From NCBI RefSeq assembly GCF_002886045.1, contig NZ_CP025791.1:4541001-4605000 (forward strand): DNA of 64,000 bases. The letters are read 5' to 3'. Positions 2,889 to 52,636 of the stretch are shown in pieces; position 1 is the first letter of the stretch, and each line of letters starts with the position of its first letter. The stretch comes from Flavivirga eckloniae. Lineage in GTDB: Bacteria > Bacteroidota > Bacteroidia > Flavobacteriales > Flavobacteriaceae. The position numbers were made by a program, and so were the translations under genes. The notes under the pieces were generated by a model. That model had not been told where the DNA came from. It made no database searches and saw only the letters and a program-made list of their open reading frames with translations.

Positions 2889-5099
2889 ATGTCCATGACC
2901 ATTTCTATATGGAGATATAGTCACTTAACACTGGCTATATTGTCCTCTGTTTTTATCTTGTTAGCCACTTTAACGGGTCTTATTTTAGCGTTCGAACCGA
3001 TTTCAAATCAGCTAAAACCCTATGCCATTAAAGATGCTGACGGGCTTTCGCTTTTTACAACCATAGAGAACTTAAAGTCTGAATACGATGAAATAATTAG
3101 TATAGAAATTGATGAAAATGATTTTATAGCGGCTTCGGTTTTAACCAAAGCAGGAAAAAATGAAACATTCTATATCGATCCTTTTACCGCCAAAAAAATA
3201 GGGGACATTATTGAAAAGACACCACTTTTTAAGTTTACAACCAATTTACATAGATCCCTGTTTTTAAAATCTATCGGGCGTGTTATTATTGGCATTGTAT
3301 CGTTTTTATTGTTTTTAATAGCGCTTACCGGTACGATTTTAATTAGTAAGAGACAAGGTGGATACAAGCGTTTCTTTTCTAAAATTGTAAAGGAAGGTTT
3401 TAATCAATATTACCATGTCGCTTTAGGAAGATATGCTTTAATTCCTATTATAATTGTTACTTTAACTGGCGTATACCTTAGTTTAGAAAAGTTTTCTTTA
3501 TTACCATCTAACAAGGTTTCGCATACCATAAAAGAAGCATCCAGTATAGAAAACCCGAAACAGTTACGTGCAGATTTTACGCTTTTTAAATCACTCACTT
3601 TAAAAGAGATATCGCGTGTAGATTTTCCTTTTTCAGATGATGCCGAAGATTACTTCTTTATAAAGCTCAAGGATAGTGAGATATTCGTTAATCAATACTC
3701 TGGAGAAATCGTGAGTGAACAAGGGTATGGTATAACGGCTCAGGCATCAAGCTGGAGTTTGTTATTGCATACGGGGCAAGGAAATACATTTTGGGCTATT
3801 ATGTTATTATTAACCTGCATTGCCATTTTATTTTTTATGTATTCAGGATTTACGATGGCTTTAAATCGTAAAAACAAAAGTGTTACTATACAGAATAAGT
3901 ATACTAAAGACAATGCAGAGTTTGTCATTTTAGTAGGATCTGAGACCGGTAGTACTTTCAATTTTGCAAATACGTTATATCAGGCGTTGATTGCGTTGGG
4001 AAAGTATCCTTTTATATCAGAACTTAATAGTTATTCAACCTATAAAAAAGCAAAGCACCTAATAGTACTTACTGCTACCTATGGTGATGGAGAAGCCCCA
4101 ACAAATGCTAAGAATTTTGAAAACCTCATTGGTGAAATTCGCCAGCAAAATACGCTTCAATATTCAGTAGTTGGCTTCGGTTCTTTGGCATATAAAGGGT
4201 TTTGTAAGTATGCCATTATAGTAGATGCTATGTTGCAATTACATAAGCAGTTTGTACCTAATTTATCACTTCATAAAATAAATAACCAATCTTTTGATGC
4301 ATTTAAAGATTGGGCAAAATCCTGGGGTGTGAGTAAAGGATTAGCTTTGAATATTGAAGAACCACAAAAAAAGTTAACTCATAAAAAATTGAAACAGTTT
4401 AAGGTTGTAAACCGATCTGTAATAAATACCGATGACACATTTTTATTGGAATTGGCACCTGAACAAAAATTGAAATTTACTTCGGGGGACTTGCTTAGCA
4501 TATATCCGAATAACGATTCGGTAGAGCGCCTGTATTCCATAGGTAAAATAAATGGAAACATACTACTAGGCGTAAAAAAGCATGAGTTTGGCTTATGTTC
4601 AACCTATTTTAGTCAGCTTAAAAAAAACGATAGCATATTAGCAGATATTAAACAAAATAAAGGCTTTCAATTTCCTGCCTCGGCAAAAGAAGTTATTATG
4701 ATTGCTAACGGAACTGGTATAGGGCCATTTTTAGGAATGCTTAACGACAAAAACTTCGAAAAAGCTAAGAAATACTTGTTTTGGGGAGCACGAACACAAG
4801 CATCGTTTCAAATGTATTCCAGTTTAGTAGACGAGGCGTTTTATAACAATAAGCTTTCAGGGCTTTATTTAAGTTTTTCAAAAGAAAAAAACCAAAAAAA
4901 GTATGTGCAAAACGCCATTACAGAAAGGTACGATTTGGTATGTCGGGTTTTAAAAAATGATGGAGTTATTATGATCTGTGGTTCTATTGCCATGCAAAAA
5001 GATGTTTTAAAAACATTAGATCGTATAACCTTGGGAAAACTAAAGTCCCCTTTAAACGATTTTGAAAAAAGAGGTCAGCTTAAAATGGACTGCTACTAA
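2889..5099 (+). CDS. PepSY transmembrane - flavodoxin - FAD/NADPH reductase fusion (probable ferric-siderophore reductase)
   Basis: 736 residues in three modules. (1) PepSY-type membrane region, residues about 10-325: four hydrophobic segments and membrane-adjacent histidines at 12, 121 (LHRS), 176 (YHVALG) and 294 (LHTG), plausible haem ligands. (2) Flavodoxin domain, about 343-480: FMN phosphate loop VGSETGST at 349-356 and ATYGDGEAP. (3) Ferredoxin-reductase-like domain to the C-terminus: FAD motif RLYSIGK, NADPH motif NGTGIGPF, CGSIAMQKDV, and a terminal aromatic Tyr. Electrons would pass from NADPH through FAD, FMN and possibly haem to a periplasmic acceptor. Membrane PepSY proteins such as FoxB reduce ferric siderophores; the adjacent receptor supports that role here. 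An assimilatory sulfite-reductase role is less likely without sulfur genes nearby. Confidence 0.88.
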   Translation: MSMTISIWRYSHLTLAILSSVFILLATLTGLILAFEPISNQLKPYAIKDADGLSLFTTIENLKSEYDEIISIEIDENDFIAASVLTKAGKNETFYIDPFTAKKIGDIIEKTPLFKFTTNLHRSLFLKSIGRVIIGIVSFLLFLIALTGTILISKRQGGYKRFFSKIVKEGFNQYYHVALGRYALIPIIIVTLTGVYLSLEKFSLLPSNKVSHTIKEASSIENPKQLRADFTLFKSLTLKEISRVDFPFSDDAEDYFFIKLKDSEIFVNQYSGEIVSEQGYGITAQASSWSLLLHTGQGNTFWAIMLLLTCIAILFFMYSGFTMALNRKNKSVTIQNKYTKDNAEFVILVGSETGSTFNFANTLYQALIALGKYPFISELNSYSTYKKAKHLIVLTATYGDGEAPTNAKNFENLIGEIRQQNTLQYSVVGFGSLAYKGFCKYAIIVDAMLQLHKQFVPNLSLHKINNQSFDAFKDWAKSWGVSKGLALNIEEPQKKLTHKKLKQFKVVNRSVINTDDTFLLELAPEQKLKFTSGDLLSIYPNNDSVERLYSIGKINGNILLGVKKHEFGLCSTYFSQLKKNDSILADIKQNKGFQFPASAKEVIMIANGTGIGPFLGMLNDKNFEKAKKYLFWGARTQASFQMYSSLVDEAFYNNKLSGLYLSFSKEKNQKKYVQNAITERYDLVCRVLKNDGVIMICGSIAMQKDVLKTLDRITLGKLKSPLNDFEKRGQLKMDCY

Positions 5100-5461: not shown

Positions 5462-5506
5462 TCTAAGGGTTTAAAATGGTGCTGGATCTGTATTAAAACA
5501 ACAACT

Positions 5507-5532
5507 AAAAGCAAATTCTACATTTGCTTTTT
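5507..5532 (+). terminator. Rho-independent terminator of siderophore operon
   Basis: A perfect 10-bp stem AAAAGCAAAT / ATTTGCTTTT with a 5-nt loop (TCTAC), starting 45 nt after the last stop codon of the operon; the right arm ends in a T-run. Confidence 0.75.
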
Positions 5533-5680
5533 ACTTGATAGAATATACAATTATACTGGTTTAATAAAACCATAGCAGATTAGGAATGTTTCTAATAGGT
5601 AAGTAGAAACTTGCTAATTAATACAATTTTATATATTTTGTATTTTCTTACAGTTAGAATAGGTTTTTATATACACAAAC

Positions 5681-5860
5681 ATGAGTGATTCGGATTATAT
5701 ACTTGTTATTGCAATTGTAGTTACAAGTTTATTGTTAAATATTGATGCCCTAAAAAATCGACAAGAGAAAAATTTCTTTAAGGCAATTACAGATTTTTTA
5801 TTTGTACCATTAGTTATTTCGATTTTAGTAATATCTGTATTATTAGGTTTTAACGATTAG
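5681..5860 (+). CDS. Small two-helix membrane protein (59 aa)
   Basis: ATG at 5681 gives 59 residues with two hydrophobic segments, YILVIAIVVTSLLLNI (about residues 6-21) and FLFVPLVISILVISVLLGF (about 39-57), separated by a charged loop with KNRQEKNFFK. The composition is that of a small integral membrane protein rather than random AT-rich sequence. It stands alone between a terminator and the LipL32-like gene. The function is unknown, and homologues would be needed to confirm it is a real gene. Confidence 0.55.
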   Translation: MSDSDYILVIAIVVTSLLLNIDALKNRQEKNFFKAITDFLFVPLVISILVISVLLGFND

Positions 5861-6104
5861 AGAGACGTTAAATGTAATTTCCTGATTTATTATGGTTTAT
5901 GAGTGAGATGTTGTAGCTTTTTAATATACCCTGTTTTCAGGGTAGTCACTTTCACTACAAAGGGGGTTTTTCTTCGAGCTTCAATACTGCACCTTTGTCT
6001 TGTGTTTAACAAATAAAAAACATATTATTTGCAATAAACATTTTTTTTAAAAGTTTATAACGAAGTGTGTCATAAAAAATCAATAATTATTTAACAAATC
6101 AACG

Positions 6105-6788
6105 ATGAAAACAAAAATCTTAATCCTATTTACAGTTATCGCATTCGGAAGTCATTTTGGTGCGCAAGCTCAAAAATTAAAAAAGTTTGGTAGTTCTACC
6201 GAGAAAAAAATGGGCCCCAAAACCATTAAAGTTCCTTACACAGATGTTGTATCATACCTTGGGTATGCAGCTCCTGGTAATGAAGACGAAACAAGAGAAG
6301 GTAAAAAGTTTTACTACATCTATGTTTGGATACCAGCTGTGGCACCAGAATTAGGTGTTAGAATGATGTCTCCTGTAGGGAAAACCAAAATAAAGAATGC
6401 AACAATGGCAAAAGCTTACGAAGCAAATGCAAAATCTAGCGAGTATTTTGATACCTACATTACTTTAGAGCGATCGGACATTATAAGTAAAGACAAAATA
6501 AGTGCTGAGGCTGCGAAAAGCGCTAAATGGACTAAACTGGAATATAACGACGATAGTAGCGAAATGCCTAAACAACCAAGTGGAAGCAGCTATAACTCGT
6601 TGTTAAGATATAAAAGCCAGGTAGGAGATCCACTTAAAGCCTTAACTGTTGGTCTTTACCGTATCGGATTTACAACGTATAAAAAAGGAGAAGTTAAGGG
6701 TACATTTTTAGCTCAAGTAGCAGCTCCTATTAAATTACCGGGCGTGGCAATGGCAAAAACCATTGAAGAATTAAAGAAAGCATTATAA
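6105..6788 (+). CDS. LipL32-like secreted protein
   Basis: 227 residues with signal peptide MKTKILILFTVIAFGSHFGA cleaved near AQA-Q (about residue 22). There is no lipobox cysteine, so unlike Leptospira LipL32 it is probably not lipidated. Similarity to LipL32 as I recall it runs through the whole mature protein: FYYIYVWIPAVAPELGVRM (LipL32 YYLYVWIPAVIAEMGVRM), YFDTYITLER, YNSLLRYK, and LYRIGFTTYKKGEVKGTF. The LipL32 calcium ligands Asp132, Thr133, Asp164, Asp165 and Tyr178 would correspond to Asp116, Thr117, Asp149, Asp150 and Tyr163 here, all present. It is a single-gene unit followed by its own terminator. The function is unknown; calcium-dependent surface or periplasmic binding is inferred from the family. 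Confidence 0.85.
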   Translation: MKTKILILFTVIAFGSHFGAQAQKLKKFGSSTEKKMGPKTIKVPYTDVVSYLGYAAPGNEDETREGKKFYYIYVWIPAVAPELGVRMMSPVGKTKIKNATMAKAYEANAKSSEYFDTYITLERSDIISKDKISAEAAKSAKWTKLEYNDDSSEMPKQPSGSSYNSLLRYKSQVGDPLKALTVGLYRIGFTTYKKGEVKGTFLAQVAAPIKLPGVAMAKTIEELKKAL

Positions 6789-6823: not shown

Positions 6824-6875
6824 AGAGGCTGCTCCAAAAGTAAATTTAACATCTTTTGAGGCAGTCTCTGTTTTT
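6824..6875 (+). terminator. Terminator after LipL32-like gene
   Basis: 17-bp stem (arms 6824-6840 and 6853-6869, two G-T wobbles) with a 12-nt AT loop and TTTTT directly after. It lies 35 nt after the stop codon. Confidence 0.8.
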
Positions 6876-6910: not shown

Positions 6911-7780
6911 TTATTCTACAGGAATATAAATCTCAGTTAGTAATTCCTCTTCGGGTGTGTTACTTTCGTCATTAATATAAAACTCCAAAGTTGGCTTATC
7001 GGCTAATTCCATAGGCATTTCAGTAAGCCAGTAGGTATATATTTTAGCATAGGTTTCGTCGCAAGATTCATGACTACCTTTGTGAATAAACTTAGCATAC
7101 TTTTGCTTTTTTATAATCTTGGTTCTAAACAAGCCTTCCTCATCAACATCCTTGTCATCATCTAGTACCACAGCCGCATTATATCTACATTTTAAAACAT
7201 CCGTTATTTCTTCATCATCCAGAATTTCACCTATAAAAGGCGTTTTATCATGAAGCACTTTCTTTTTAAGAGCGTAAATAACAAGTTGCTCCCAGATATC
7301 CTTAATGGCTTTAATGTTATCGTAGTCGCCATAATATGTAAGGTACATAATTTTAAGATCGGGCAATTCCTCTACCGTATATTCTGGTTTATAGTCCTCG
7401 TCGAATTCTTCGTCAAGCACAATTTTTTTGGTCAGGTTTTGTCTATAATCATAAGAGTTTCTAAAAATAGAAGGAGAACAACGAAAGTGTTTTTTAAACG
7501 CCTTGCTAAAGGAAGAAATCTCACTATAACCAACATCGTAGGCTATATCTGCTATAGATTGGTTAGAGAATTTTAAATACTCTGCAGCCTTTTCCAGACG
7601 TAACCGCTTTTGGTACTGTCCTATGGTTTCCTGATGCAGGGATAAAAAAATCCTGTTAATATTTCTGTACGAATAAAAAGCCGTGTTTTCTATATCCTGT
7701 ACGGTTATTTCTTCTTTGAATTTATCATCCAACATACTCAGCAATCTTTTATATCTGTCTAAACGTGTAGCGTTTTCCAT
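6911..7780 (-). CDS. AraC-family regulator with GyrI-like effector domain
   Basis: 289 residues. N-terminal AraC-type double helix-turn-helix (about residues 8-105) with LEKAAEYLKFSNQSIADIAY and VGYSEISSFSKAFKKHFRCSP. C-terminal GyrI-like small-molecule-binding domain (about 133-289), seen in LKIMYLTYYGDYDNI, the strand KYAKFIHKGSHESCDETYAKIY and the acidic ending EEELLTEIYIPVE. This is the Rob/SoxS-like DNA-binding plus effector-sensor architecture. It is divergent from the gene at 7924, and the space between holds a long inverted repeat (7828-7878), its probable operator. The effector is unknown. Confidence 0.9.
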   Translation of the reverse strand: MENATRLDRYKRLLSMLDDKFKEEITVQDIENTAFYSYRNINRIFLSLHQETIGQYQKRLRLEKAAEYLKFSNQSIADIAYDVGYSEISSFSKAFKKHFRCSPSIFRNSYDYRQNLTKKIVLDEEFDEDYKPEYTVEELPDLKIMYLTYYGDYDNIKAIKDIWEQLVIYALKKKVLHDKTPFIGEILDDEEITDVLKCRYNAAVVLDDDKDVDEEGLFRTKIIKKQKYAKFIHKGSHESCDETYAKIYTYWLTEMPMELADKPTLEFYINDESNTPEEELLTEIYIPVE

Positions 7781-17511: not shown

Positions 17512-20500
17512 ATGAAATTAAAAATATTAAGCCTTTTAATACTAATATTTATCGTATTTGGAAATCTTACGGCTTATTCCCAAAGTAGAACGGTAAAAGG
17601 AATAGTAACTTCCGGATCGACTAATTTTCCACTAGCATTTGCTAACGTATCAATAAAATACACACCTTACGGGGTGTCAACAAATTTTGATGGAAGTTAC
17701 GAGATTCGTCTACAAGAATCAGAAACTACACTTATATTTAGCTATCAAGGCTTTAAAACTCAGGAGGTAGTTGTTACTAAATCTGAAATTAATATTGTGC
17801 TTCAAGAAGATATAACCAAGTTAGATGAAGTTGTACTTATTGGTTACGGAAGCTCTTCAAGAAAAGATTTAACAGGATCGATAGGATCACTTAAATCAAA
17901 GGATTTAGATGCGGTACGAGTAACATCGGTTGATGAGTTTGTACAAGGACGTGTTTCTGGGGTGGTTTTAACCCAAACATCCGGACAACCTGGTGGTGCC
18001 TCTTCAATTAGAATTAGGGGTACAAGTTCAATTCTTGCAGGAAATGAACCCTTATATGTTATCGATGGTGTTATTGTTGAAAGTAGTAATTCCATGCAAT
18101 CTTCTGGTATAGCAGATGGACCACCAATTAACGCGATGTCTAACATTAACCCGGCAGATATTAAGTCGATCGATGTTTTAAAAGATGCCTCGGCAACTGC
18201 GATTTATGGATCCAGAGGAGCGAGTGGTGTTATTATAATTAAAACAAAAAGAGGGCATAATGGAGAAGTAAAAGTAGACTTCGATTCGTATTTAGGTGTA
18301 CAAACGGTTAATAAAAAACTTAAGCTTTTAAACGGAGCACAATTTGCACATTATATAAACGAAGCAAACTATAATGCAGGCATGCCAAGACTGTATACAG
18401 ACCCTACAGCATTTGGTGAAGGAACAGATTGGCAAGACGAATTATTTAGAGAAGCTATTATTCAAAATTACAATTTCTCTGCAAGAGGCGGTAACGAGAA
18501 TGTAAAATATGCTCTTAGTGGTTCTTACTTGGGGCAGGAAGGTGTTGTACAAGGAACAGATTTTAATCGTATGAGTTTTAGAGCTAATCTAGATTTTAAA
18601 CTAAGCGAAAATGTAAGTCTTGAAAATACAGCTAATATTAGTAGAATAAATTTCAATACAGTAAATACAGAGGGAAGCACAGGTTTAGGTAGAGGAAGTT
18701 TTGTTTCTAGAACATACGATTTTAGCCCGTTACTTCCTGTAGTTACAGAAAATGGAGATTACACAAAAGCTAATTATATGGTTGATAATAACGGATCGTT
18801 TGTTAATACGATTGAAAACTCAAACTTTGTAGGCGGTACTGCCTTAGTGAATCCGTTGGCCGAAATCGCTTTAAACGAAAGTAAAGGAAAGAATACGCGA
18901 TTAATGAATAACTTAGTGCTTAAATGGGAACTAAGAAAGAATCTGCATTTTAAATCTTCTCTAGGTGTAGACTTATTGTTTAACGACGAGAGTGTGTTTA
19001 GAACTGTTCAACTTGATTTTTCTCCATCTAGACAAGCCAATGCTTTAAGAGCTAAGCAGCTAAGTTCTAACTGGGTTAATGAATCAACACTAAGATATAC
19101 AAACACATTTAACAACAAACACAATTTAAACAGTTTTGTTGGTTTCTCTGCGCAGCAATTCGAAGTAGATAATTTGAGCGGGATTGCGTTAGGCTTTCCA
19201 GTAGAGAATTTCGGAACCGACAATATTGGTTTGGGAGAACAGCCAACTATAGGTTCTGGATTAACAAAATCTGCATTACTATCCTATTTTGGTCGTGCTA
19301 GCTATACTTACGCTGGTAAATATATCATTACGTTAACAGGAAGATACGATGGTTTTTCCGGGTTTGGAGAAAATAACAAATATGAATTTTTCCCTTCGGC
19401 AGCTTTAGCGTGGAATATCTCTGATGAAGGATTTATGGAAGACTCAAGTGTATTTTCACATCTTAAATTAAGATTGGGTTATGGAGAAGTTGGTAACTCA
19501 GCGTTAGGAGCATACTCGTCATTATCAAGATATAGAAAATCCATTCATTATTTTGGAGGTGAGCCAGCACCAGGGTTTATCCCTTCTTCTGCAGCTAATG
19601 CAGATCTTAAGTGGGAAGTGTCTCAGCAATATAATGCTGGTTTAGATATGAGTTTCTTCGATAGTAAATTAGGTATAACGATAGATGTGTATAATAAAAA
19701 GACGGAAGATTTATTATTGAATTTACCAACCCCTTTACAAACAGGTTATAGTATTGCAACCATAAATGCCGGTAATGTAGAAAACAGAGGTATTGAAGCA
19801 TCATTAGATGGTAAAATATTTACAGGAGAACAGTTCGAATGGTCGGCAAATGTAGCCGTATCATACAACGAAAATGAGATTACAAACCTGGCTGGGTTAG
19901 ATCAAATTTCAACAGGAGCAGGCGTTAACGTTATAGATGGTTGGCAGCGTTTAGTTGAAGGTGGTGAAATTGGAGCTTTCTTCGGATATGTATCTGACGG
20001 GATAGCACAATTAGATGATAATATTAGTAGCATTCCTCATTTCCTTACAGAAACCTTAGTGCCGGGAGAGCGCAAGTACAAGGACTTAAATGGTGATGGC
20101 GTAATCAATGCAGACGACAGAACTTTTATAGGGAATCCAAATCCGGAATATAGTTTTGGAATCAGTAATACGTTTAGATATAAAGCATTCGATTTGAATT
20201 TATTTATACAAGGCGTATATGGTAATGAGATTGTTAACTTTAATAGATACAATATAGAAGCTCTAGACGGGCGTTCGAATGTTACTTTAGAAGCGTTTAG
20301 TAATAGATGGACACCAAATAATCCTTCCAATACATTTACAAGAGCAGCTACCGGACAGCGTGTTGCCAGATTTTCAGATCACTTTGTTGAGGATGGATCT
20401 TACTTAAGATTAAAATCTATTACGTTGGGCTATTCTGTACCAGCATCGTATATGACCAAAACTGGAATTAACAGAATGCGATTTTATGTTACAGGTAAAA

Positions 20501-20643
20501 ACCTGTTTACTTTAAGTGATTACAGTGGTGTAGATCCAGAAGTAAGTGTAGGAGGGCAAGATAATAACCTAAGTGCCGGTGGCGATTTTGGTAGCTACCC
20601 ATCTACACAAACGTTACTGTTTGGATTAAACTTTAACTTTTAA
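17512..20643 (+). CDS. susC: SusC/RagA-family TonB-linked outer-membrane transporter
   Basis: 1043 residues. Signal peptide to about residue 24, then a carboxypeptidase-regulatory-like domain (VKGIVTSGSTNFPLAFANVS), the SusC signature LDEVVLIGYGSSSRKDLTG serving as TonB box region, the plug (RIRGTSSILAGNEPLYVIDG, ASATAIYGSRGASGVIIIKT), and a long barrel ending LLFGLNFNF. It imports oligosaccharides in an energy-dependent way with the SusD partner, encoded 17 nt downstream. Given the neighbouring GH92 and mannose kinase-isomerase, manno-oligosaccharides are a plausible substrate. Confidence 0.95.
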   Translation: MKLKILSLLILIFIVFGNLTAYSQSRTVKGIVTSGSTNFPLAFANVSIKYTPYGVSTNFDGSYEIRLQESETTLIFSYQGFKTQEVVVTKSEINIVLQEDITKLDEVVLIGYGSSSRKDLTGSIGSLKSKDLDAVRVTSVDEFVQGRVSGVVLTQTSGQPGGASSIRIRGTSSILAGNEPLYVIDGVIVESSNSMQSSGIADGPPINAMSNINPADIKSIDVLKDASATAIYGSRGASGVIIIKTKRGHNGEVKVDFDSYLGVQTVNKKLKLLNGAQFAHYINEANYNAGMPRLYTDPTAFGEGTDWQDELFREAIIQNYNFSARGGNENVKYALSGSYLGQEGVVQGTDFNRMSFRANLDFKLSENVSLENTANISRINFNTVNTEGSTGLGRGSFVSRTYDFSPLLPVVTENGDYTKANYMVDNNGSFVNTIENSNFVGGTALVNPLAEIALNESKGKNTRLMNNLVLKWELRKNLHFKSSLGVDLLFNDESVFRTVQLDFSPSRQANALRAKQLSSNWVNESTLRYTNTFNNKHNLNSFVGFSAQQFEVDNLSGIALGFPVENFGTDNIGLGEQPTIGSGLTKSALLSYFGRASYTYAGKYIITLTGRYDGFSGFGENNKYEFFPSAALAWNISDEGFMEDSSVFSHLKLRLGYGEVGNSALGAYSSLSRYRKSIHYFGGEPAPGFIPSSAANADLKWEVSQQYNAGLDMSFFDSKLGITIDVYNKKTEDLLLNLPTPLQTGYSIATINAGNVENRGIEASLDGKIFTGEQFEWSANVAVSYNENEITNLAGLDQISTGAGVNVIDGWQRLVEGGEIGAFFGYVSDGIAQLDDNISSIPHFLTETLVPGERKYKDLNGDGVINADDRTFIGNPNPEYSFGISNTFRYKAFDLNLFIQGVYGNEIVNFNRYNIEALDGRSNVTLEAFSNRWTPNNPSNTFTRAATGQRVARFSDHFVEDGSYLRLKSITLGYSVPASYMTKTGINRMRFYVTGKNLFTLSDYSGVDPEVSVGGQDNNLSAGGDFGSYPSTQTLLFGLNFNF

Positions 20644-20660
20644 TGCTAAATTAATTTAAA

Positions 20661-22163
20661 ATGAAATTATATAACAAATATATACTGTTTTTAGCGCCAC
20701 TCATGCTTTTAGCATTTTGGAGTTGTGAGGACTTTTTAGAAGAAGATCCAAATTTTATTACAGAAGGCACATTTTATAAAACAGAAACAGATGCCAGGTT
20801 AGCAGTAAATGGAATTTATGAAACCTTAGGAGGAGGTGCTTTTAATAGAAATTGGGAAGGTGTGTACTTTAATAATTATTGGACCGCAGTAGCGTTAATG
20901 TCCGATGAAGGTATACCCGGACCACTTAGCTATGATGCGAATTATATGCAGTTGGCAAATTATTCCCTAGGACCAACAAATGCTGTGGTAGCCAATATAT
21001 GGAGCGATTTTTACACATCAATAAATGCAGCTAATTTGGCCATAGACAATATTCCTAATATTGATATGGATACCAATTTAAAAAGCAGATTGATAGGGGA
21101 AGCACGTTTTTTAAGAGGGCTGTTTTATTTTGAACTGGTTAGAATGTATAACCATGTACCATTGCAGTTACATGCTACTACTAGCTTTAATGCAGAATCT
21201 TATTTAGCCAGAACACCATCGGATAAGGTTTATGAGCAAATTATAGAGGATCTTACTTTTGCCGAAAACAATTTACCCGAAGAATTTACAGGAAAAGATA
21301 AAGGGAGACCAACACTATGGTCTGCAAAAGCATATTTGGCTAAGGTAGCCCTAACACTTGGAAATTGGCAAACAGCGGCCAATAAAACAGAAGAGGTAAT
21401 GGCTGGACCTTTTGGACTATGGGCAGATTATAAAGAAGCTTTTCTAATAGCTAATAATAATGGTAAGGAGTCTGTATTCTCTATTAATTTCGATAAGGGT
21501 ACATCTCTGGAATTAATTTGGGAAGGGTCGCACTTAAACTTTAGAACCATGGCGCAAGAGTATAGAGCCATTCCTGGTGCCGGAGGAGCAGATTTAGAAG
21601 TACCAACAACTAGGGTTTATGAAGTATTTGATGATTTGGACAGAAGAAAGAGTGTCACTTTTGTAACCGAAGATGTTATTAACGGCGAGAACGTTGTGTT
21701 AAGTGGACCACATATTCATAAGTATTGGGACAGAGATGCAGAACCTTCGGGAACTCCAAATACAATTAACGATTTACAGTTAATACGTTATTCAGATATT
21801 TTATTAATGCATGCAGAAGCATTAAATGAAATAAATACTGGACCAACTGCAGCTGCATTAAACTCTATTAATCAGGTAAGAGAACGTGCCAGAAATAATG
21901 CTGGTACCATTGAAAATACGTTGCCAGATCTTGAAATGACGTTGTCTTATAACCAATTTAAAGAAGCTATTTTGTTAGAGCGTTTTAAAGAGTTTGTTTG
22001 GGAAGGACATCGTTGGTTCGATTTAAAACGATTTAATATGTTTACCGAAAAAGTTAACGAGGCCAAACCGGGTTCTGCTGTAAGATCTGATAATGTATAT
22101 TTTCCAATTCCACAGCGAGAAAGGGACACCAATACCAAGTTAACTCAAAATGACGGCTATTAA
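20661..22163 (+). CDS. susD: SusD/RagB-family nutrient-binding lipoprotein
   Basis: 500 residues with lipoprotein signal ending LLAFWSCEDFLEEDPN. SusD features include the TPR-like helices ANLAIDNIPN and LIGEARFLRGLFYFELVRMY, the RYSDILLMHAEALNEI region, INQVRERARNN, and the C-terminal LLERFKEFVWEGHRWFDLKR. It forms the lid of the SusC transporter. It is the last gene before the 15-bp hairpin terminator at 22222. Confidence 0.95.
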   Translation: MKLYNKYILFLAPLMLLAFWSCEDFLEEDPNFITEGTFYKTETDARLAVNGIYETLGGGAFNRNWEGVYFNNYWTAVALMSDEGIPGPLSYDANYMQLANYSLGPTNAVVANIWSDFYTSINAANLAIDNIPNIDMDTNLKSRLIGEARFLRGLFYFELVRMYNHVPLQLHATTSFNAESYLARTPSDKVYEQIIEDLTFAENNLPEEFTGKDKGRPTLWSAKAYLAKVALTLGNWQTAANKTEEVMAGPFGLWADYKEAFLIANNNGKESVFSINFDKGTSLELIWEGSHLNFRTMAQEYRAIPGAGGADLEVPTTRVYEVFDDLDRRKSVTFVTEDVINGENVVLSGPHIHKYWDRDAEPSGTPNTINDLQLIRYSDILLMHAEALNEINTGPTAAALNSINQVRERARNNAGTIENTLPDLEMTLSYNQFKEAILLERFKEFVWEGHRWFDLKRFNMFTEKVNEAKPGSAVRSDNVYFPIPQRERDTNTKLTQNDGY

Positions 22164-44637: not shown

Positions 44638-47600
44638 ATGAATTATAAAATAAAATTTTTCTTGCTTTGTTGCTTTATTTTTCTTGGGCAACTATTGGAG
44701 GCGCAGAATATTAAGGTTTCTGGAGAAGTATTAGACGAAACAGGTGCGCCTTTAGTAGGAGCTACCATAGTTACTTCAGGAACGGGTGGTGCAGTATTAG
44801 GAACCGTTGTAGATTTTGATGGAGGCTATTCTTTAATGGTAGACTCAAATGCTACATTAGTTTTTTCTTTTGTTGGCTATAGAACACAAAAAGTTGATGT
44901 TAATGGCAATACAGTCATTAATGTGACATTGATGCCAGATATTGACTCATTAGAAGAAATAGTCATTTTGGGGTATAATAGAACCAAAAAAGAAAATATT
45001 GTAGGTTCTGTTGCCACAGTAAAAGGAGAAAGATTAATGGAAACAGGGCTCACCAATATGTCTCAGGCTATTCAAGATAGATTGCCAGGGGTGTATACAG
45101 AGATTACCTCGGGCCAACCAGGAGCAGACGATGCCGTAATTAGAGTTCGTGGGGTTGCCAGTTTTAGTGGTAGTAACGACCCACTTATACTAATAGATGG
45201 TATAGAAGCAACTGGAGGGTTTTCTCAATTAGATCCCTCTGAAATCGCATCAATATCTATATTGAAAGATGCATCTTCCACAGCAGTGTATGGAGTTCGT
45301 GGTGCAAATGGTGTAATTATTATTACAACAAATAGAGGGCGATTAGGATCACCTAAAATAACCGTAGGTGCAGCTGTTACAGCAAAAACGATTTCCGAGA
45401 TTCCAGACAAATTATCGTCTTACGATGTTTTAACGTTGGGGCAGGAAGCTATTAAAAATTCGGGAGCTTATAATCAATTGAGGCCACAACGCTACATTGA
45501 TACGTTTTTAGACCCTAATAGAGACCCTTATGCTTTTCCGGATGTAGATTGGTATGATGAAATAATAAGAGATATTGGTTGGGAATCTAATGCCAGAATT
45601 AATGTGAGAGGAGGAACAGAGTTTGTTAAATATTTTAGTTCACTTAGTATAAATAGAATTGGAGATATTTTAAAAACTGAAGATTTTAATGGCTATTATG
45701 ATCCGGAGTTTAGCTACGATAAAATTAACTTTAGAACAAACCTTGATTTTCAGGTTAGTAGCACAACAAAATTATCTGTAGATGTTTCTGGACGTACAGA
45801 TATTAGAAAATCTCCTGATGCAGATGTAGGAAGTAATCAATTTAGTAACCTTTTTAAGTTTATTGATCAAGCTACATCATACGGTTTTCCTTTGTACTAT
45901 CCAGAAGAGTTTGTGTTAGCAAACCCAGATCCTTTCGCGCCTTTTCCAGGTGGTATTCGTTATAGTTCATCTCAATTGGAAAATCCAGGTCAAACAAACC
46001 CATACACAAAAATTAATTATTCTGGTATGAGAAAGTTTAAGACCGATGTGGTAGATGTTCAATTAAATTTAAATCAAAATTTAGATGGGATAACAGAAGG
46101 TTTGGTAGCCTCTGGAAAGTTTAATTATAGTACAGCTTACGATTATCAGAAAATAGAAAGATACAATCCTCACCAATGGTTGTACGATCCGATTTTAAAA
46201 GAATGGAGATCGCAACGAAGTGGATTTAATTATAATCAAAATAACCCGGTATTTAGAAGCTCGGGAGGAGAAACTTTTAGTTCTACCAGAAGAAATATAT
46301 ATTATGAGTTTAAACTTAATTACCAGCGCAATTTTGGAGATCATAATGTTCAACTTTTAGGTGTTTTTAACCGTCAGGAACGAGATATAGGAATTGTAGA
46401 TGTTCCAAGGTATAGCGAGGATTGGGCAGGTATTTTTAATTATAACTATAAAGAGCGATATTACCTTAATGGATCGGCTGGTTATAATGGTTTTGAGAAT
46501 TATGCCAGAGGTAAACGTTTTGGTTTTTTTCCTGCTGTTGCTGTAGCTTGGAATATTGCCAAAGAAAAAATTGTAAGCGATAATGTATCTTGGTTAAATG
46601 AATTTAAAGTAAGATATAGTTATGGTAAAACGGGGCTTAGCCAATTAACCGGTCTAGATCGTTTTGTTTACTTAGGAGGATATGCCGGAACAAATCCAGG
46701 CTTTGGTCATATTCAATTTGGTGTACCACGACGAGATGAAATACAAAGATGGGCAGAAGTAAAAGTAGCTAATCCGAATACTACTTGGGAAAACTCCACA
46801 AAGCAAGATTTAGGTTTTGATATTAAACTATTTGATTACGACCTTACAATAGGAGTTACCCTTTATAAAGAACTACGTGAAGATCTTCTTCTAACTCCAC
46901 CTAGACCTTCATATTTTCAGCCTCATATAGGAACCAATCCAAGAAACCGTCCAGATAGCCGAGTATCATTACCACGAGTTAATGTTGGTACAGCAAAAAA
47001 TCATGGTCTTGAAATAGAGGCGAATTATAGACATACCACTCCTGGAGATTTAACATATTCATTTGGGGGTCATGCAACCTTTGCCGATAGCCGTAGTGTT
47101 TTTCAATTAGACGGAGCATCAAGACCGGAATACCAAAAAAATGCAGGGAAACCAATAGGTTGGATAGATGGATATTATAGTAATGGTTTTATAAACAATT
47201 TTGAAGAATCTATTAATGCTCCTGAGATTTCAGGAGGAACCAATACTGCAGGTCATTATTTCTACTCAGATTTTAATGCAAATGGTAGAATAGATGTTAA
47301 TGATAGAATTCCTCTAGACGGAACAAGTCAACCACAAATAGTTTATGCCTTTAATAGTAGTATTACCTACAAAGGTTTTAATTTAAGTGTACGATTTTTT
47401 GGTAAAGAAGGCGTCTTATATCACACAGATAACTTATTTCCTAACTTCGATAGAGGGTTGTTAGAAGCAAAAACGGCTCATTTAGATAGATGGACTCCAG
47501 AAAACCAAAATGCAAGATTTCCAGCTTATGGAAATATAGATGGACAGAAAGGTTATGGTGTTAGAAGTAACATGACGGCAGCTAACTCTTCATATTTAAA

Positions 47601-47817
47601 GCTGCAAAACGTAAATCTGGCATACAGTATAGAATCTGAGTTTCTAAAAAGAGCTTTAAGAATTCAAACGATGCGATTAAACTTATCTGGACAAAACTTG
47701 TATACCTGGTCAAAACTACCCTATGGAGAACCAGAAGGAGGGAATAGCCTTTCAGGCGGAAATGGACAATACCCTTTAGTAAAGCGGTTTGTTTTTGGTG
47801 TAAATATTGATTTTTAA
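44638..47817 (+). CDS. susC: SusC/RagA-family transporter, pair A
   Basis: 1059 residues. Signal peptide to about residue 22 (LLEAQ), carboxypeptidase-like domain (VSGEVLDETGAPLVGATIV), TonB-box segment DSLEEIVILGYNRTKKENIVG, plug motifs (RVRGVASFSGSNDPLILIDG, ASSTAVYGVRGANGVIIITT), long barrel ending VFGVNIDF. It imports glycan fragments with the SusD protein encoded 11 nt downstream. It is the first of two SusC genes in the same operon. Confidence 0.95.
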   Translation: MNYKIKFFLLCCFIFLGQLLEAQNIKVSGEVLDETGAPLVGATIVTSGTGGAVLGTVVDFDGGYSLMVDSNATLVFSFVGYRTQKVDVNGNTVINVTLMPDIDSLEEIVILGYNRTKKENIVGSVATVKGERLMETGLTNMSQAIQDRLPGVYTEITSGQPGADDAVIRVRGVASFSGSNDPLILIDGIEATGGFSQLDPSEIASISILKDASSTAVYGVRGANGVIIITTNRGRLGSPKITVGAAVTAKTISEIPDKLSSYDVLTLGQEAIKNSGAYNQLRPQRYIDTFLDPNRDPYAFPDVDWYDEIIRDIGWESNARINVRGGTEFVKYFSSLSINRIGDILKTEDFNGYYDPEFSYDKINFRTNLDFQVSSTTKLSVDVSGRTDIRKSPDADVGSNQFSNLFKFIDQATSYGFPLYYPEEFVLANPDPFAPFPGGIRYSSSQLENPGQTNPYTKINYSGMRKFKTDVVDVQLNLNQNLDGITEGLVASGKFNYSTAYDYQKIERYNPHQWLYDPILKEWRSQRSGFNYNQNNPVFRSSGGETFSSTRRNIYYEFKLNYQRNFGDHNVQLLGVFNRQERDIGIVDVPRYSEDWAGIFNYNYKERYYLNGSAGYNGFENYARGKRFGFFPAVAVAWNIAKEKIVSDNVSWLNEFKVRYSYGKTGLSQLTGLDRFVYLGGYAGTNPGFGHIQFGVPRRDEIQRWAEVKVANPNTTWENSTKQDLGFDIKLFDYDLTIGVTLYKELREDLLLTPPRPSYFQPHIGTNPRNRPDSRVSLPRVNVGTAKNHGLEIEANYRHTTPGDLTYSFGGHATFADSRSVFQLDGASRPEYQKNAGKPIGWIDGYYSNGFINNFEESINAPEISGGTNTAGHYFYSDFNANGRIDVNDRIPLDGTSQPQIVYAFNSSITYKGFNLSVRFFGKEGVLYHTDNLFPNFDRGLLEAKTAHLDRWTPENQNARFPAYGNIDGQKGYGVRSNMTAANSSYLKLQNVNLAYSIESEFLKRALRIQTMRLNLSGQNLYTWSKLPYGEPEGGNSLSGGNGQYPLVKRFVFGVNIDF

Positions 47818-47828
47818 AAATAGAAATT

Positions 47829-49613
47829 ATGAAAAATTATAAATATATATTCATTTTTATCTCTGTCTTTTTATTGGCAGGATGTGAAGATTATCTAGAT
47901 AGAACAGGTACAAGTGAACTTACTCCAGAAGAAGAAGCTTGGAGCAATAGAGTTATAATCACCAGTTTTGCTTATAGAATGTATGATACTATGGGATGGA
48001 TGTACGAGATTCGCCAAGACGGATTTAATAGGCGCGAATCTGGACCAGGAAAAAACTATGGTAGTTGTGTTGTGTTTTCTGGAGAAGTTATTGATATGCG
48101 ATCTCATTTTGTACATAACGATGTGTTTAAAGGCGATTATGTTGATGCCCTAAAGCTTTCTTTTGCTAATCCAGAGTTTTGGGATGCCTGGTATGATAAC
48201 TGGGAACTCGTATTTGTATCTAATAATATTCTTGATAAGATTGATGAGGTTACTACAGATATTATGCCTCAAAATGAAATAGATCAAATAAAGGGCGAAG
48301 CTTATTTGTTTAGAGCGTTTGCATACCATGAGCTTTCTAAACGTTGGGGAGCATTACCATATATTAAGACTAGAATTTTTCCAGATTCAGACCTTAACCT
48401 TCCCAGACCAACTTATCGTGAGCAAATTACAGATATTATTGCAGATTGTGATATGGCTATAGCGACGTTGCCAGAAGATAGTTACCTAAACGATCCAGTC
48501 AATATGGGACGTATGGGTAGAGCGGCAGCTATGGCATTAAAATCCAAAGCGTTAACAACAGCTGCTAGCCCTAACTATACAGCAAACAATCAAAAAGATA
48601 CCGAGTTATGGGAAATGGCTGCTAGTGCTGCCTGGGATTTAATTAAGCTTGGTCAAACATCCGATAAGGTTGGATTGTACCAAGGGGATTACGGTGAAAT
48701 ATTTCATACAAGTAGAGGAACTATTGAAGGTGTTTGGCCTAGATACTTTGGTGAAAGTGATGCAGGAGCATATAACCTGTCATGGTTATGGGTTCGTACA
48801 GGAGGTAAGACAGGATATTCGCCAACACAAGAGCTGGTTGATAGATTTGAGACCGCCGATGGTTATCCAATTTCGCACGCTAACTCTAATTACAATGAAC
48901 AAAACCCTTATGTAAACAGGGATCCCCGATTTTATAAAGATATTTTGTATCATGGTGCCGCTTTTCCTGTTATTTCAGATAGTGACTTATTAGATATGAG
49001 AACATCACCGGTGATAGGAGATGACCGTTCAAAACCATTTTCTACTGATTACGGTAGTTCTACTACAGGCTATTTAGCAAGAAAGTTTCTTCCGGAAAAG
49101 TTCAATCTTACAGGATATAGAAGAAATACATTTGTAAATCCGCCATATATAAGAATGGCCGAAATATACCTGAATTACGCAGAAGCTGTTAACGAAGCTT
49201 ATGGAAACCCTAATGCTACAGCCCCTGGCGCATCATTAACTGCCGTAGAAGCTGTAAATGCGGTTCGTAATAGAGTTGGGCATGTAGATGTAAGACCAGA
49301 ATTTACAACCGATGAAGGGGTTTTTCGGGAACTTGTTAGAAATGAGTTTAGAGTAGAGCTGTGTTTTGAGTACCATACTTGGTACGATATATTACGTTGG
49401 AGAATTGGTCAAGAAGAATTTGACGGAAAACGTATGCATGGTGTATTAATAACAGAAGATGCTACACAACCAACGGGTGTTAGATATGAAAGATTTCCAA
49501 TAGAACAAGGACCACCTAGAATTTTTGTGGACAGAATGTATAGATATCCCTTAAAAGAATCTGATTTACAGATTTTCGAAATTCCGTTATTAACCCAAAA
49601 TCCAGGATGGTAA
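47829..49613 (+). CDS. susD: SusD/RagB-family lipoprotein, pair A
   Basis: 594 residues, lipoprotein signal FISVFLLAGCEDYLDRTG. SusD features: helices NILDKIDEVTTD and IKGEAYLFRAFAYHELSKRW, the AEIYLNYAEAVNEAYG block, VEAVNAVRNRVGHV and the C-terminal LVRNEFRVELCFEYHTWYD, ILRWRIG. It is longer than the ~500-residue norm, with an insertion between about 230 and 420. It pairs with the SusC encoded 11 nt upstream and ends 2 nt before the next upstream-most ATG. Confidence 0.95.
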   Translation: MKNYKYIFIFISVFLLAGCEDYLDRTGTSELTPEEEAWSNRVIITSFAYRMYDTMGWMYEIRQDGFNRRESGPGKNYGSCVVFSGEVIDMRSHFVHNDVFKGDYVDALKLSFANPEFWDAWYDNWELVFVSNNILDKIDEVTTDIMPQNEIDQIKGEAYLFRAFAYHELSKRWGALPYIKTRIFPDSDLNLPRPTYREQITDIIADCDMAIATLPEDSYLNDPVNMGRMGRAAAMALKSKALTTAASPNYTANNQKDTELWEMAASAAWDLIKLGQTSDKVGLYQGDYGEIFHTSRGTIEGVWPRYFGESDAGAYNLSWLWVRTGGKTGYSPTQELVDRFETADGYPISHANSNYNEQNPYVNRDPRFYKDILYHGAAFPVISDSDLLDMRTSPVIGDDRSKPFSTDYGSSTTGYLARKFLPEKFNLTGYRRNTFVNPPYIRMAEIYLNYAEAVNEAYGNPNATAPGASLTAVEAVNAVRNRVGHVDVRPEFTTDEGVFRELVRNEFRVELCFEYHTWYDILRWRIGQEEFDGKRMHGVLITEDATQPTGVRYERFPIEQGPPRIFVDRMYRYPLKESDLQIFEIPLLTQNPGW

Positions 49614-49638
49614 TATGTTAACGATTAACGATTTTACA

Positions 49639-52620
49639 ATGATAAAAACAAAAATACTATATCTAATACTGGCAGGCCTTTTCTTTGTATTGCCTTTTCA
49701 GGTAAACGCTCAGGAAGAAAGCGATTTAAGTATGGTTTCTGCCACAATATCTAATAGAACAGGATATGTATTAAAAGAAGTACATATACAAGCTTTTAAT
49801 TCTAAAAATAGAGCAGTTACTAACGAAGATGGAAGCTTCAGTATAAGAGTTGAAAATGAGGATATTCTTATTATATCCCATTTGGGTTACGAAAAAGCTG
49901 TAGTTTATGTGAAAGAAGGGAACTTGGAAAGCGATACTATTGTATTAAAACAATGGGGAACTATAGAACCTCAAGAGGATACCAACATCGCTTTGGGAAG
50001 TTTACCATTTGAACGTATTACAGGATCTGTTGAGCGTATTACAGGCGAAGAGTTAAACGATTTTCCAACACCTTTTGTACGTGAAGCTTTAGCTGGTAGA
50101 TTATCTGGTTTAACGACGTCGTATGGTGATGCATCTACGGTTACCGAGAGTTTTGGTAATGGGATTCGAGGGCAAGAAGTAGGGCAACTTTATGTAGATG
50201 GTGTGCCCGCTGTAGACATTGTTCTTACGCCTGCAGAGGTAGATGATGTTATAGTAGCAAAAGATTACGGTTCTACTTTTATGTTCGGTACTTTAGGAGC
50301 TCCTGGAGCTCTTATTGTAAATACTAAGCGTGGATTACCAGGCGAGCGTCTATTTAGAATAACATCCAATACAGGAGTTAGAACACCTGCTTTTTTACCT
50401 AGTACGATGAATGCTCAAGATTATGCCAGAAACTATAATATTGCACTTAGTAATGATGGTTTTAGCCCTATTTATACCCAGAACGATATTAATGATTATG
50501 CTACAGGTAATAACCCAGTTAGAAACCCTAATAATAATTATTACGAAGACTTTGTTAATGGCATTTCTACTTATTCGCATGTAACGGGTGACTTTTCTGG
50601 TGGAAATGAGAAAGTTCAATATTTTTCCCATTTAGGTTATTACACCACTAACGGTATAGAAACCGTTGGAGAAGGTAGGAAGTCTTCAAGGATTAGATTG
50701 AATAATAACGTGCAAATTCAGTTTGGAGATGCTGGTGTGGTTAATTTAGGAGTTGGTGGTAGTTTTAATAAAAGAAATGAGCCAAAGCTAAGTGCCAACG
50801 ATGCTTTTAATACGATGTATAATTATCCGGCAAATGCTTTACCTTATAAAGTAAATGATACTATTTTTACTAGCAGTAGAGAATTTAGTAGAAATTTACT
50901 TGTAGACTTGGCTCACAGCTCAATTATTGAGGATATTAGAAGGGATGCTTTTGCGAGAGTGGGGTTAGACCTTAATCTAGATAAAGTAACAAAAGGTTTA
51001 ACGTTAAAAACTTTGGTTGGGATGTATGTCTTAAATGTTTTAACAGATGTTATTGAGCCAACGCCACATACAGCAGAACCAATTTTTACTTTAGAAAATG
51101 ATGGAACATACAGGGTTTCAGGACTAAGAAATTTTATTAATGGAGAAGATCGTTTTCAATTCAAAAAGTTAGCAGATCGCGTAGACAGAACACAATTCAT
51201 TAATGCTAATCTAAGTTATGTAAGAAACTTTAATGACAATCATAAGGTTATTGCAGATCTGTTTTTTAATAATCAAAAACTAACAGGTAGTACTTTAGCT
51301 CAAAATGTCATTTTTAGAAATATTGGGGCTAGAGTAAATTATATGTTTAACCAAAAATATGTACTAGAAGGAAAACTACTAAATGCACCTATACGTCAGT
51401 TATCAAAAGATGAGAAAAAGAAAGTAAACTATGATGCAGGATTAGCCTGGCTATTGCACAAAGAATCTTTTCTGAAAAATGCATCCTGGTTAAATTTTTT
51501 AAAGCTTAGAGGTAATTTTGGAGTACAATCAAGACCAGTTAGCCAATTCTTTATTTCCGAAAATTTATATAAACGTACTAATGCTGGTGGTAATTTTGGA
51601 GTTGATGGCGGACAGACGGGGTCTACTGGTACTAATAGAATTTTTACGGCTTCTAATCTTATAACCCCTAAACAGGAATATTTAAGTATTGGTTTGGATT
51701 TTCAAATGTTTAAATCGAAAATTAACGGACAGCTAAACTATTTTAATATTCGTAATTATGATCAAATAATATCGCCAGGTAATTTATTTGCCTTTTTACC
51801 AACGGCATATTTACCTTTAATTAATTATGAAGATAGTAGGTTTAGAGGAATTGATGGTAACATATCTTATAGTAACAAAATAGGTAATTTATCATATAAA
51901 ATTGGAGTAAATGCAACTTATGGAGTTAACTACACAACTTTATCAAACGATACAACTTACCCTATAGGAGAAGAACAGAGAAATGTAATTGGAAATAACG
52001 AGGTTATTAGAGGATTAAAAGCCATAGGTATTTTTCAAAATGAAGCCGAGATAGCAAGTGCTCCTACTCAATTATTTGGTGATGTGAAACCTGGAGATAT
52101 TAGATATTTGGATTTTAATAATGATGGATTAATTGACGAGAAGGATTATCATGAAATTGGTACACCATCAAGAGTTGATTTTGGTCTAAACTATATGATG
52201 CAGTATAAAAATTGGAGTATGGGTATTCATGCAGATGGTAAAGTTGGAGGAAGTTATATTGAACAATTAAACTGGAATAGAAAAGCTAATGATTATACTA
52301 ATGAGCTTGCGAATAGTTGGCCGGTTAGCAATAGTTTACCAAGGTTAACAACACTAACAAATACCAACAACTATAGAAATTCTTCATTTTGGTTAAAAAA
52401 AGCAGGGTATTTAAATTTAAGAAGTATTATGGTAGCTTATTCGTTACCACAGGCCTTACTAAAGGATTTGGGTGTTAAGGAGTTTTCGCTTTCGGCATCT
52501 ACTAAAAACCCTTTTGTAATATCATATAGCGACCAAAGGTTTATGCCAAGTAGAAATAAAGGGTATTCACAACATCCGGTACTAAGAACCTTTGAATTAG
52601 GTGTGCAAGTGTCGTTTTAA
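49639..52620 (+). CDS. susC: SusC/RagA-family transporter, pair B (divergent TonB-box region)
   Basis: 993 residues from the ATG at 49639 (MIKTKILYLILAGLFFVLPF..NAQ signal); an ATG at 49615 adds eight residues. A carboxypeptidase-like domain (VSATISNRTGYVLKEVHIQAF) is followed by SusC plug features (REALAGRLSGLTTSYG, GIRGQEVGQLYVDGVPAVD, GSTFMFGTLGAPGALIVNTK) and a barrel ending RTFELGVQVSF. The usual LDEVVVxGYG segment is missing; the corresponding region reads ALGSLPFERITGSVERIT. It may use TonB through another segment or depend on pair A. It is 25 nt after the previous gene. Confidence 0.9.
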   Translation: MIKTKILYLILAGLFFVLPFQVNAQEESDLSMVSATISNRTGYVLKEVHIQAFNSKNRAVTNEDGSFSIRVENEDILIISHLGYEKAVVYVKEGNLESDTIVLKQWGTIEPQEDTNIALGSLPFERITGSVERITGEELNDFPTPFVREALAGRLSGLTTSYGDASTVTESFGNGIRGQEVGQLYVDGVPAVDIVLTPAEVDDVIVAKDYGSTFMFGTLGAPGALIVNTKRGLPGERLFRITSNTGVRTPAFLPSTMNAQDYARNYNIALSNDGFSPIYTQNDINDYATGNNPVRNPNNNYYEDFVNGISTYSHVTGDFSGGNEKVQYFSHLGYYTTNGIETVGEGRKSSRIRLNNNVQIQFGDAGVVNLGVGGSFNKRNEPKLSANDAFNTMYNYPANALPYKVNDTIFTSSREFSRNLLVDLAHSSIIEDIRRDAFARVGLDLNLDKVTKGLTLKTLVGMYVLNVLTDVIEPTPHTAEPIFTLENDGTYRVSGLRNFINGEDRFQFKKLADRVDRTQFINANLSYVRNFNDNHKVIADLFFNNQKLTGSTLAQNVIFRNIGARVNYMFNQKYVLEGKLLNAPIRQLSKDEKKKVNYDAGLAWLLHKESFLKNASWLNFLKLRGNFGVQSRPVSQFFISENLYKRTNAGGNFGVDGGQTGSTGTNRIFTASNLITPKQEYLSIGLDFQMFKSKINGQLNYFNIRNYDQIISPGNLFAFLPTAYLPLINYEDSRFRGIDGNISYSNKIGNLSYKIGVNATYGVNYTTLSNDTTYPIGEEQRNVIGNNEVIRGLKAIGIFQNEAEIASAPTQLFGDVKPGDIRYLDFNNDGLIDEKDYHEIGTPSRVDFGLNYMMQYKNWSMGIHADGKVGGSYIEQLNWNRKANDYTNELANSWPVSNSLPRLTTLTNTNNYRNSSFWLKKAGYLNLRSIMVAYSLPQALLKDLGVKEFSLSASTKNPFVISYSDQRFMPSRNKGYSQHPVLRTFELGVQVSF

Positions 52621-52636
52621 TTAAAAAAATCAAAAA

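Follow-up and report, generated by a model that had tools for sequence, protein, structure and literature searches.

A LipL32-family gene of Flavivirga eckloniae encodes a predicted unlipidated periplasmic protein whose relatives often neighbour a sensor kinase cassette

In pathogenic Leptospira no protein is more abundant than LipL32; what does a relative of this protein do in a free-living flavobacterium? The question is raised by a stretch of DNA of 64,000 nucleotides (nt) from Flavivirga eckloniae (RefSeq assembly GCF_002886045.1, contig NZ_CP025791.1, positions 4,541,001 to 4,605,000 of the forward strand), which is called the window here. At 6105..6788 (+) it carries a LipL32-family gene (P0001), an ATG-to-stop frame of 227 amino acids (aa), and this observation is confirmed. 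Judging from sequence, we give a probability of about 0.5 to the reading that its product is a Sec-exported, soluble, periplasmic, calcium-binding jelly-roll protein which likely works for an envelope-sensing two-component system rather than as a surface adhesin.

The original prediction had claimed homology with LipL32 over the mature length, the motifs YVWIPAV, GVRM, FDT and GLYRIGFTTYKKGEVKG, five conserved calcium ligands with their numbering, and an ordinary signal peptide in place of the lipobox. All of these claims were borne out, the signal peptide as a prediction, and so was the LipL32 fold. The profile PF12103 matched the window protein with an E-value of 5.3e-81 and 271 bits (cut-off 25) over model positions 1-179 of 179, and three LipL32 crystal sequences matched it at 6e-32 to 8e-32, which excludes chance similarity. 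The domain spans residues 39-216 (6219..6752, +), and the strands of the structure model, predicted with a local distance difference test score (pLDDT) of 90.8, form the jelly roll of LipL32. All four motifs are found in the protein. In the sequence alignment with Leptospira LipL32 (P0122), the predicted ligands D116 and T117 (6450..6455, +), D149 and D150 (6549..6554, +) and Y163 (6591..6593, +) face the identical residues D132, T133, D164, D165 and Y178, given as the calcium cluster of Leptospira LipL32 in a passage of PMC5566480; the match is one of aligned residues. Among 339 homologues, D116, D149 and D150 are invariant (339/339), T117 occurs in 338 and Y163 in 333, and 332 have all five together. 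Thirty of the 210 columns checked are at least 99% conserved, including four of the five ligands, with Y163 slightly lower; the calcium site is thus one among several fixed features and not the sole one. The same prediction had presented a LipL32 protein outside spirochaetes as news in a family with few reported relatives, and this did not hold. Passages in Gardiner et al. 2014 (PMC4080168) describe orthologues in Gammaproteobacteria, Treponema brennaborense and Flavobacteriaceae (Cellulophaga, Formosa and Ulvibacter), suggest that the gene was transferred horizontally and report a conserved calcium-binding region, and 966 protein clusters match the window protein. Relatives outside spirochaetes were therefore already published in 2014, and what our literature searches did not turn up is the gene company that they keep.

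The protein is predicted to be exported without a lipid anchor. Residues 1-22 (6105..6170, +) read most naturally as a Sec type I signal peptide, as a hydrophobic stretch is followed by the Ala-x-Ala-type junction AQA/QK; residues 1-45 contain no cysteine, and a similar junction ([AGS]Q[KNR]) is found in 120 of the 121 rows nearest the window. The window protein's Pfam and NCBIfam matches at E-values up to 0.01 include neither a type IX secretion tail nor a C-terminal sorting domain. These features bear on a different reading, in which the protein reaches the surface or the medium and, as a calcium-dependent adhesin, aids attachment to algae or animals, like PtlL32 of Pseudoalteromonas tunicata. 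Experiments in that species support it directly: as stated in passages of Gardiner et al. 2014 (PMC4080168), a knockout of the LipL32 relative bound extracellular matrix and an alga less well. However, the window protein lacks both a lipobox and a type IX tail, the two known surface routes considered. Passages in Pinne and Haake 2013 (PMC3544172) argue that LipL32 of Leptospira is largely subsurface, call its primary function largely unknown and describe a lipL32 mutant as equally matrix-adherent. An adhesin role also does not predict linkage to a sensor system, and we regard it as possible but rather doubtful. The label "surface" given to the Bacteroidota proteins is probably wrong on location.

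The linkage was seen in a set of 72 loci, drawn from the best 80 of 210 encoding stretches and so confined to near relatives; 35 of them are from Aquimarina, some overlap on one contig, and gammaproteobacterial, Leptospira and Treponematales loci are outside the counts. Neighbours were clustered, and the domains of kinase, regulator and membrane protein were read on one representative each. A gene for a 139-aa membrane protein, which matched no Pfam or NCBIfam family, lies within 5 kb of LipL32 in 48 loci and on the same strand in all 48. Within 8 kb, 41 loci have a TPR-HisKA_3 sensor kinase and 42 a LuxR-type response regulator; all three partners are present in 37. The pattern is not confined to one genus: among the 37 non-Aquimarina loci the membrane protein, kinase and regulator occur in 29, 30 and 30, and among the Aquimarina loci the membrane protein occurs in 19 of 35. 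When the gene just before LipL32 on its strand belongs to the cassette, the two are 11-65 nt apart in 37 of 44 cases, an operon-like spacing. A SIMPL-domain or zinc-ribbon gene frequently sits in between. In Aquimarina genomes, three pairs of loci (L023/L037, L027/L051 and L030/L035) each stand for two LipL32 genes that a single contig carries at a distance of 11-14 kb. No report of the linkage between LipL32 and this cassette was found in the open-licence literature, as judged from titles and abstract openings.

Such company could also be kept by a mobile accessory gene that stays near the same locus by inheritance and transfer and has no functional tie to the cassette. The large share of one genus in the set (35 of 72 loci) and the 19 loci with no partner would suit this explanation, but the partner-bearing loci cover Flavobacteriales and Cytophagales, and the arrangement persists even though kinases of the Cytophagales loci L092 and L086 share only 28-34% identity with those of five others, against 72-75% for the LipL32 proteins. 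The constant strand of the membrane-protein gene (48/48) likewise speaks against it, and we consider it unlikely.

Within the genus, LipL32 was found in 9 of 12 Flavivirga genomes (window genome included), and the membrane protein in the same nine and in none of the three others (Fisher test p 0.0045, kinship ignored). Some of these genomes and some of the 72 loci above belong to one and the same assembly, L059 and L099 with their identical kinase being an example, and the two sets are not independent. The order membrane protein, LipL32, kinase, regulator was seen in all seven other congeners that have just one LipL32 gene, and in two of these loci the copy is broken: that of G004 (L102) is split over two frames and that of G007 (L103) is partial. 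Both lie between intact-looking membrane-protein and kinase-regulator genes, which suggests that LipL32 is dispensable in some lineages, and two broken copies among nine are also a point in favour of an accessory gene. Genome G010 has two LipL32 genes, one after a kinase-regulator pair and the other with none of the three partners within 18 kb.

The window copy departs from this arrangement. In the window genome, membrane protein, kinase and regulator lie together at 1.861 Mb (G000:C1) without LipL32, with a gap of 303 nt between membrane protein and kinase, and the window gene is an orphan at 4.547 Mb, 2.7 Mb from the trio, with no cassette adjoining it. No convincing LipL32 remnant was found in the 303-nt gap (the best of the matches listed had an E-value of 2.5 over 17 residues). 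The trio has other neighbours than the cassettes of the congeners, and its locus may therefore be a different one. The SIMPL protein had no match in the window's own genome. The window protein clusters with a protein from a Maribacter metagenome-assembled genome (90% identity), with P0002 (91%) and with the second G010 copy, away from the congeners' resident copies, which makes horizontal acquisition of the window gene probable as far as the tree can tell. Forcing it to group with the congener copies costs 30 log-likelihood units (approximately unbiased test, p 0.022, for a group picked post hoc), a result that the accessory-gene explanation shares. Among 72,556 plasmid and 50,697 phage records, no match to a mobile element was found at an E-value of 1e-5. 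We also looked for a cassette remnant 5' of the window gene and rejected it, as 124 of 300 resamples aligned at least as well as 5462-6104 did with the L021 cassette. A short putative leader, GTGTGTCATA, is common to the window and L021 and has a similar counterpart in L098.

In the family and the phylum, LipL32 is patchy, being present in 11 of 299 family genomes and in one of 395 genomes of a phylum draw, the window's own; this, too, is what a mobile accessory gene would show. The membrane protein had a strong match in 29 of the 299 family genomes (32 with three marginal ones), and was found in 6 of the 11 LipL32 genomes against 23 of the 288 others (Fisher test p 1.6e-4, rising to 3.0e-4 if the marginal matches are included, kinship ignored). 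Several observations weigh against a sensor-system role and have to be set beside this association. The membrane protein is missing from five of the 11 LipL32 genomes (of these five, three are less than 90% complete), and 23 family genomes carry it but not LipL32. Of 20 loci centred on the membrane protein, only 8 have a kinase and regulator of the cassette type directly beside it, and one more has them about 5 kb off. No cassette was seen at six LipL32 loci (L107-L112) from other genomes of the family, of which L109 and L112 belong to the other Bacteroidota clade. In the set of 72 loci, the membrane protein is not within 5 kb in 24 and none of the three partners is present in 19. The orphan position of the window copy and the P. 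tunicata knockout point the same way. From these genome and locus counts we conclude that the sensor module exists alone and is joined by LipL32, which can also live apart from it. As loci L151-L170 show, the membrane protein is a wider family module, often with a SIMPL neighbour and in many cases without the cassette kinase or LipL32.

The preferred reading, a periplasmic envelope factor, combines soluble export, the conserved calcium cluster, the lack of a recognised surface route and the operon-like row of sensor genes; the step from neighbourhood to function is one that we infer throughout. How would such a protein work? Sec would export it, and it would stay in the periplasm without a lipid anchor. 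In a hydropathy scan of five kinases, a single strong internal membrane helix separated the N-terminal part of each from its kinase part, and three of the five additionally had N-terminal signal-like stretches; as the TPR part is N-terminal to the internal helix, the usual topology would place it in the periplasm, where the LipL32-type protein would also sit. The regulator may control the LipL32 gene, or the LipL32-type protein may tune the kinase, and calcium may stabilise or gate it. With the trio 2.7 Mb off and lacking LipL32, the window copy would work either in trans or by itself.

The surroundings of the window gene bear on its present state. The hairpin at 6824..6869 (+), followed by GTTTTTA, is a likely intrinsic terminator, with a folding energy of -21.5 kcal/mol (z -3.97, equalled by 1 of 200 shuffles); a strict-consensus scan found no terminator. 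Upstream, 6000..6031 (+) holds a weak promoter-like site, TTG-N20-TATTATTTG, 73 nt 5' of the ATG, which we take to be of the Bacteroidota type. It is a pattern match only, one of two loose matches in the 643-nt gap before the gene, where a stricter pattern gave no match. In this gap we also noted by eye, at about 5681-5860 (+), an unlisted frame of roughly 59 aa that contains two hydrophobic stretches. On the other side, an AraC/GyrI-like regulator at 6911-7780 (-) adjoins the LipL32 gene. It has no close relative in the 11 congeners, where the best match has 31% identity, so it may have arrived together with the LipL32 gene. The codon adaptation of the LipL32 gene, an indirect proxy of abundance, is 0.605 against a reference of 28 plus-strand frames of the ribosomal region, rank 14 of the 38 window frames of at least 100 aa, and it lends no support to high expression like that of LipL32 in Leptospira. 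Is the window copy, then, what remains of a transferred gene that is decaying and no longer has a role? Its orphan position, the AraC-type neighbour without a close congener relative and the ordinary codon adaptation would agree with this, but the full-length frame with all five ligand residues, its own terminator-like hairpin and the confident structure model make such decay highly improbable. Farther away, the window encodes at 2889-5099 (+) a single protein in which a PepSY transmembrane region is joined to flavodoxin and oxidoreductase NAD-binding domains; its gene is preceded by a DUF2271 gene. By eye, genes at 17512-22163 and 44638-54334 (+) resemble SusC/SusD pairs, which would indicate polysaccharide utilisation loci.

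Was the lipid anchor lost, as the original prediction had put it? We rejected loss as the simplest reading. A lipobox was found in none of the 121 rows nearest the window, and lipobox-free rows are the majority everywhere examined save in the Leptospira group and one further clade (the lists held the best 120 of 966, 188 and 1252 matches). A lipobox-like site occurs in 14 of 14 rows of the Leptospira group (P0122-P0135, with six rows named Leptospira). Counting these, such sites occur in 31 of 120 rows of P0122-P0241, among which those of P0158, P0162, P0163, P0164 and P0197 seem accidental by eye, and in 30 of 98 rows of P0242-P0339. P0169 and P0175 (the latter labelled Planctomycetes), placed beside the Leptospira group in the tree, also have a lipobox, as do 9 of 11 rows of the clade holding P0186, which is nested in the Bacteroidota part; the closest named relatives of P0186 among the matches listed are Spirochaetia and Treponematales. 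P0258, a named Termitinemataceae protein, has no lipobox. On a midpoint-rooted tree of 93 rows, which excludes proteins shorter than 210 aa and most rows at least 78% identical to a kept row, an unlipidated root takes three changes and a lipidated root five (P0160, which has no signal, was not scored); three is the minimum, rising to five if two ambiguous rows are scored as lipidated. With the true root uncertain, an anchor never gained in this lineage probably fits better than one that was lost, and the word "lipoprotein" in the names of the Bacteroidota proteins seems, on this evidence, to be wrong on lipidation. Taken as a whole, the original prediction is partly supported. Its idea that a free-living relative may reveal the ancestral role gains from the gene neighbourhood. 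One could extend it speculatively to an ancestral LipL32 that was no adhesin but an unlipidated, calcium-binding partner, in the periplasm, of an envelope-sensing system (periplasmic TPR kinase, LuxR-type regulator and small membrane protein), with the two lineages leading to spirochaetes each gaining a lipid anchor, but we think this improbable. If it were true, the most abundant protein of Leptospira would be the membrane-tethered descendant of an envelope-homeostasis protein. If free-living relatives act together with a sensor kinase within the envelope, attention shifts from adhesion to envelope and calcium homeostasis, and the unsolved role of LipL32 could be tested in harmless flavobacteria with the operon-like cassette.

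Compared with Leptospira LipL32 (PDB 2wfk, 2zz8 and 3frl), the window protein lacks the lipobox and has 13 residues after the last PGV motif instead of 31. Its score with the NCBIfam equivalog NF038394 (major surface lipoprotein LipL32) is 116.9 bits, under the required 300, and neither it, without a cysteine in its first 45 residues, nor any of the 121 nearest rows has the lipoprotein signal that goes with that family. The relatives in Pseudoalteromonas and Photobacterium (P0143 and P0151) share PF12103 with the window protein and have no lipobox by the pattern used, but they fall in the other main clade together with the Leptospira group (support 100/100), P0143 being 43% identical to the window protein; PtlL32 of P. 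tunicata was compared from print only. The relatives in Spirochaetia and Treponematales (for example, P0250, P0254 and P0264) also have PF12103, but with a lipobox, and P0186, the query that found them, belongs to a clade surrounded in the tree by unlipidated rows of the Bacteroidota type. The "Lipl32 family lipoproteins" of Flavobacteriaceae (Aquimarina, Formosa, Flavivirga and Winogradskyella) show 71-91% identity among the matches listed and an unlipidated type of signal like that of the window protein; in the loci examined they mostly lie near the sensor cassette, whereas the window copy does not.
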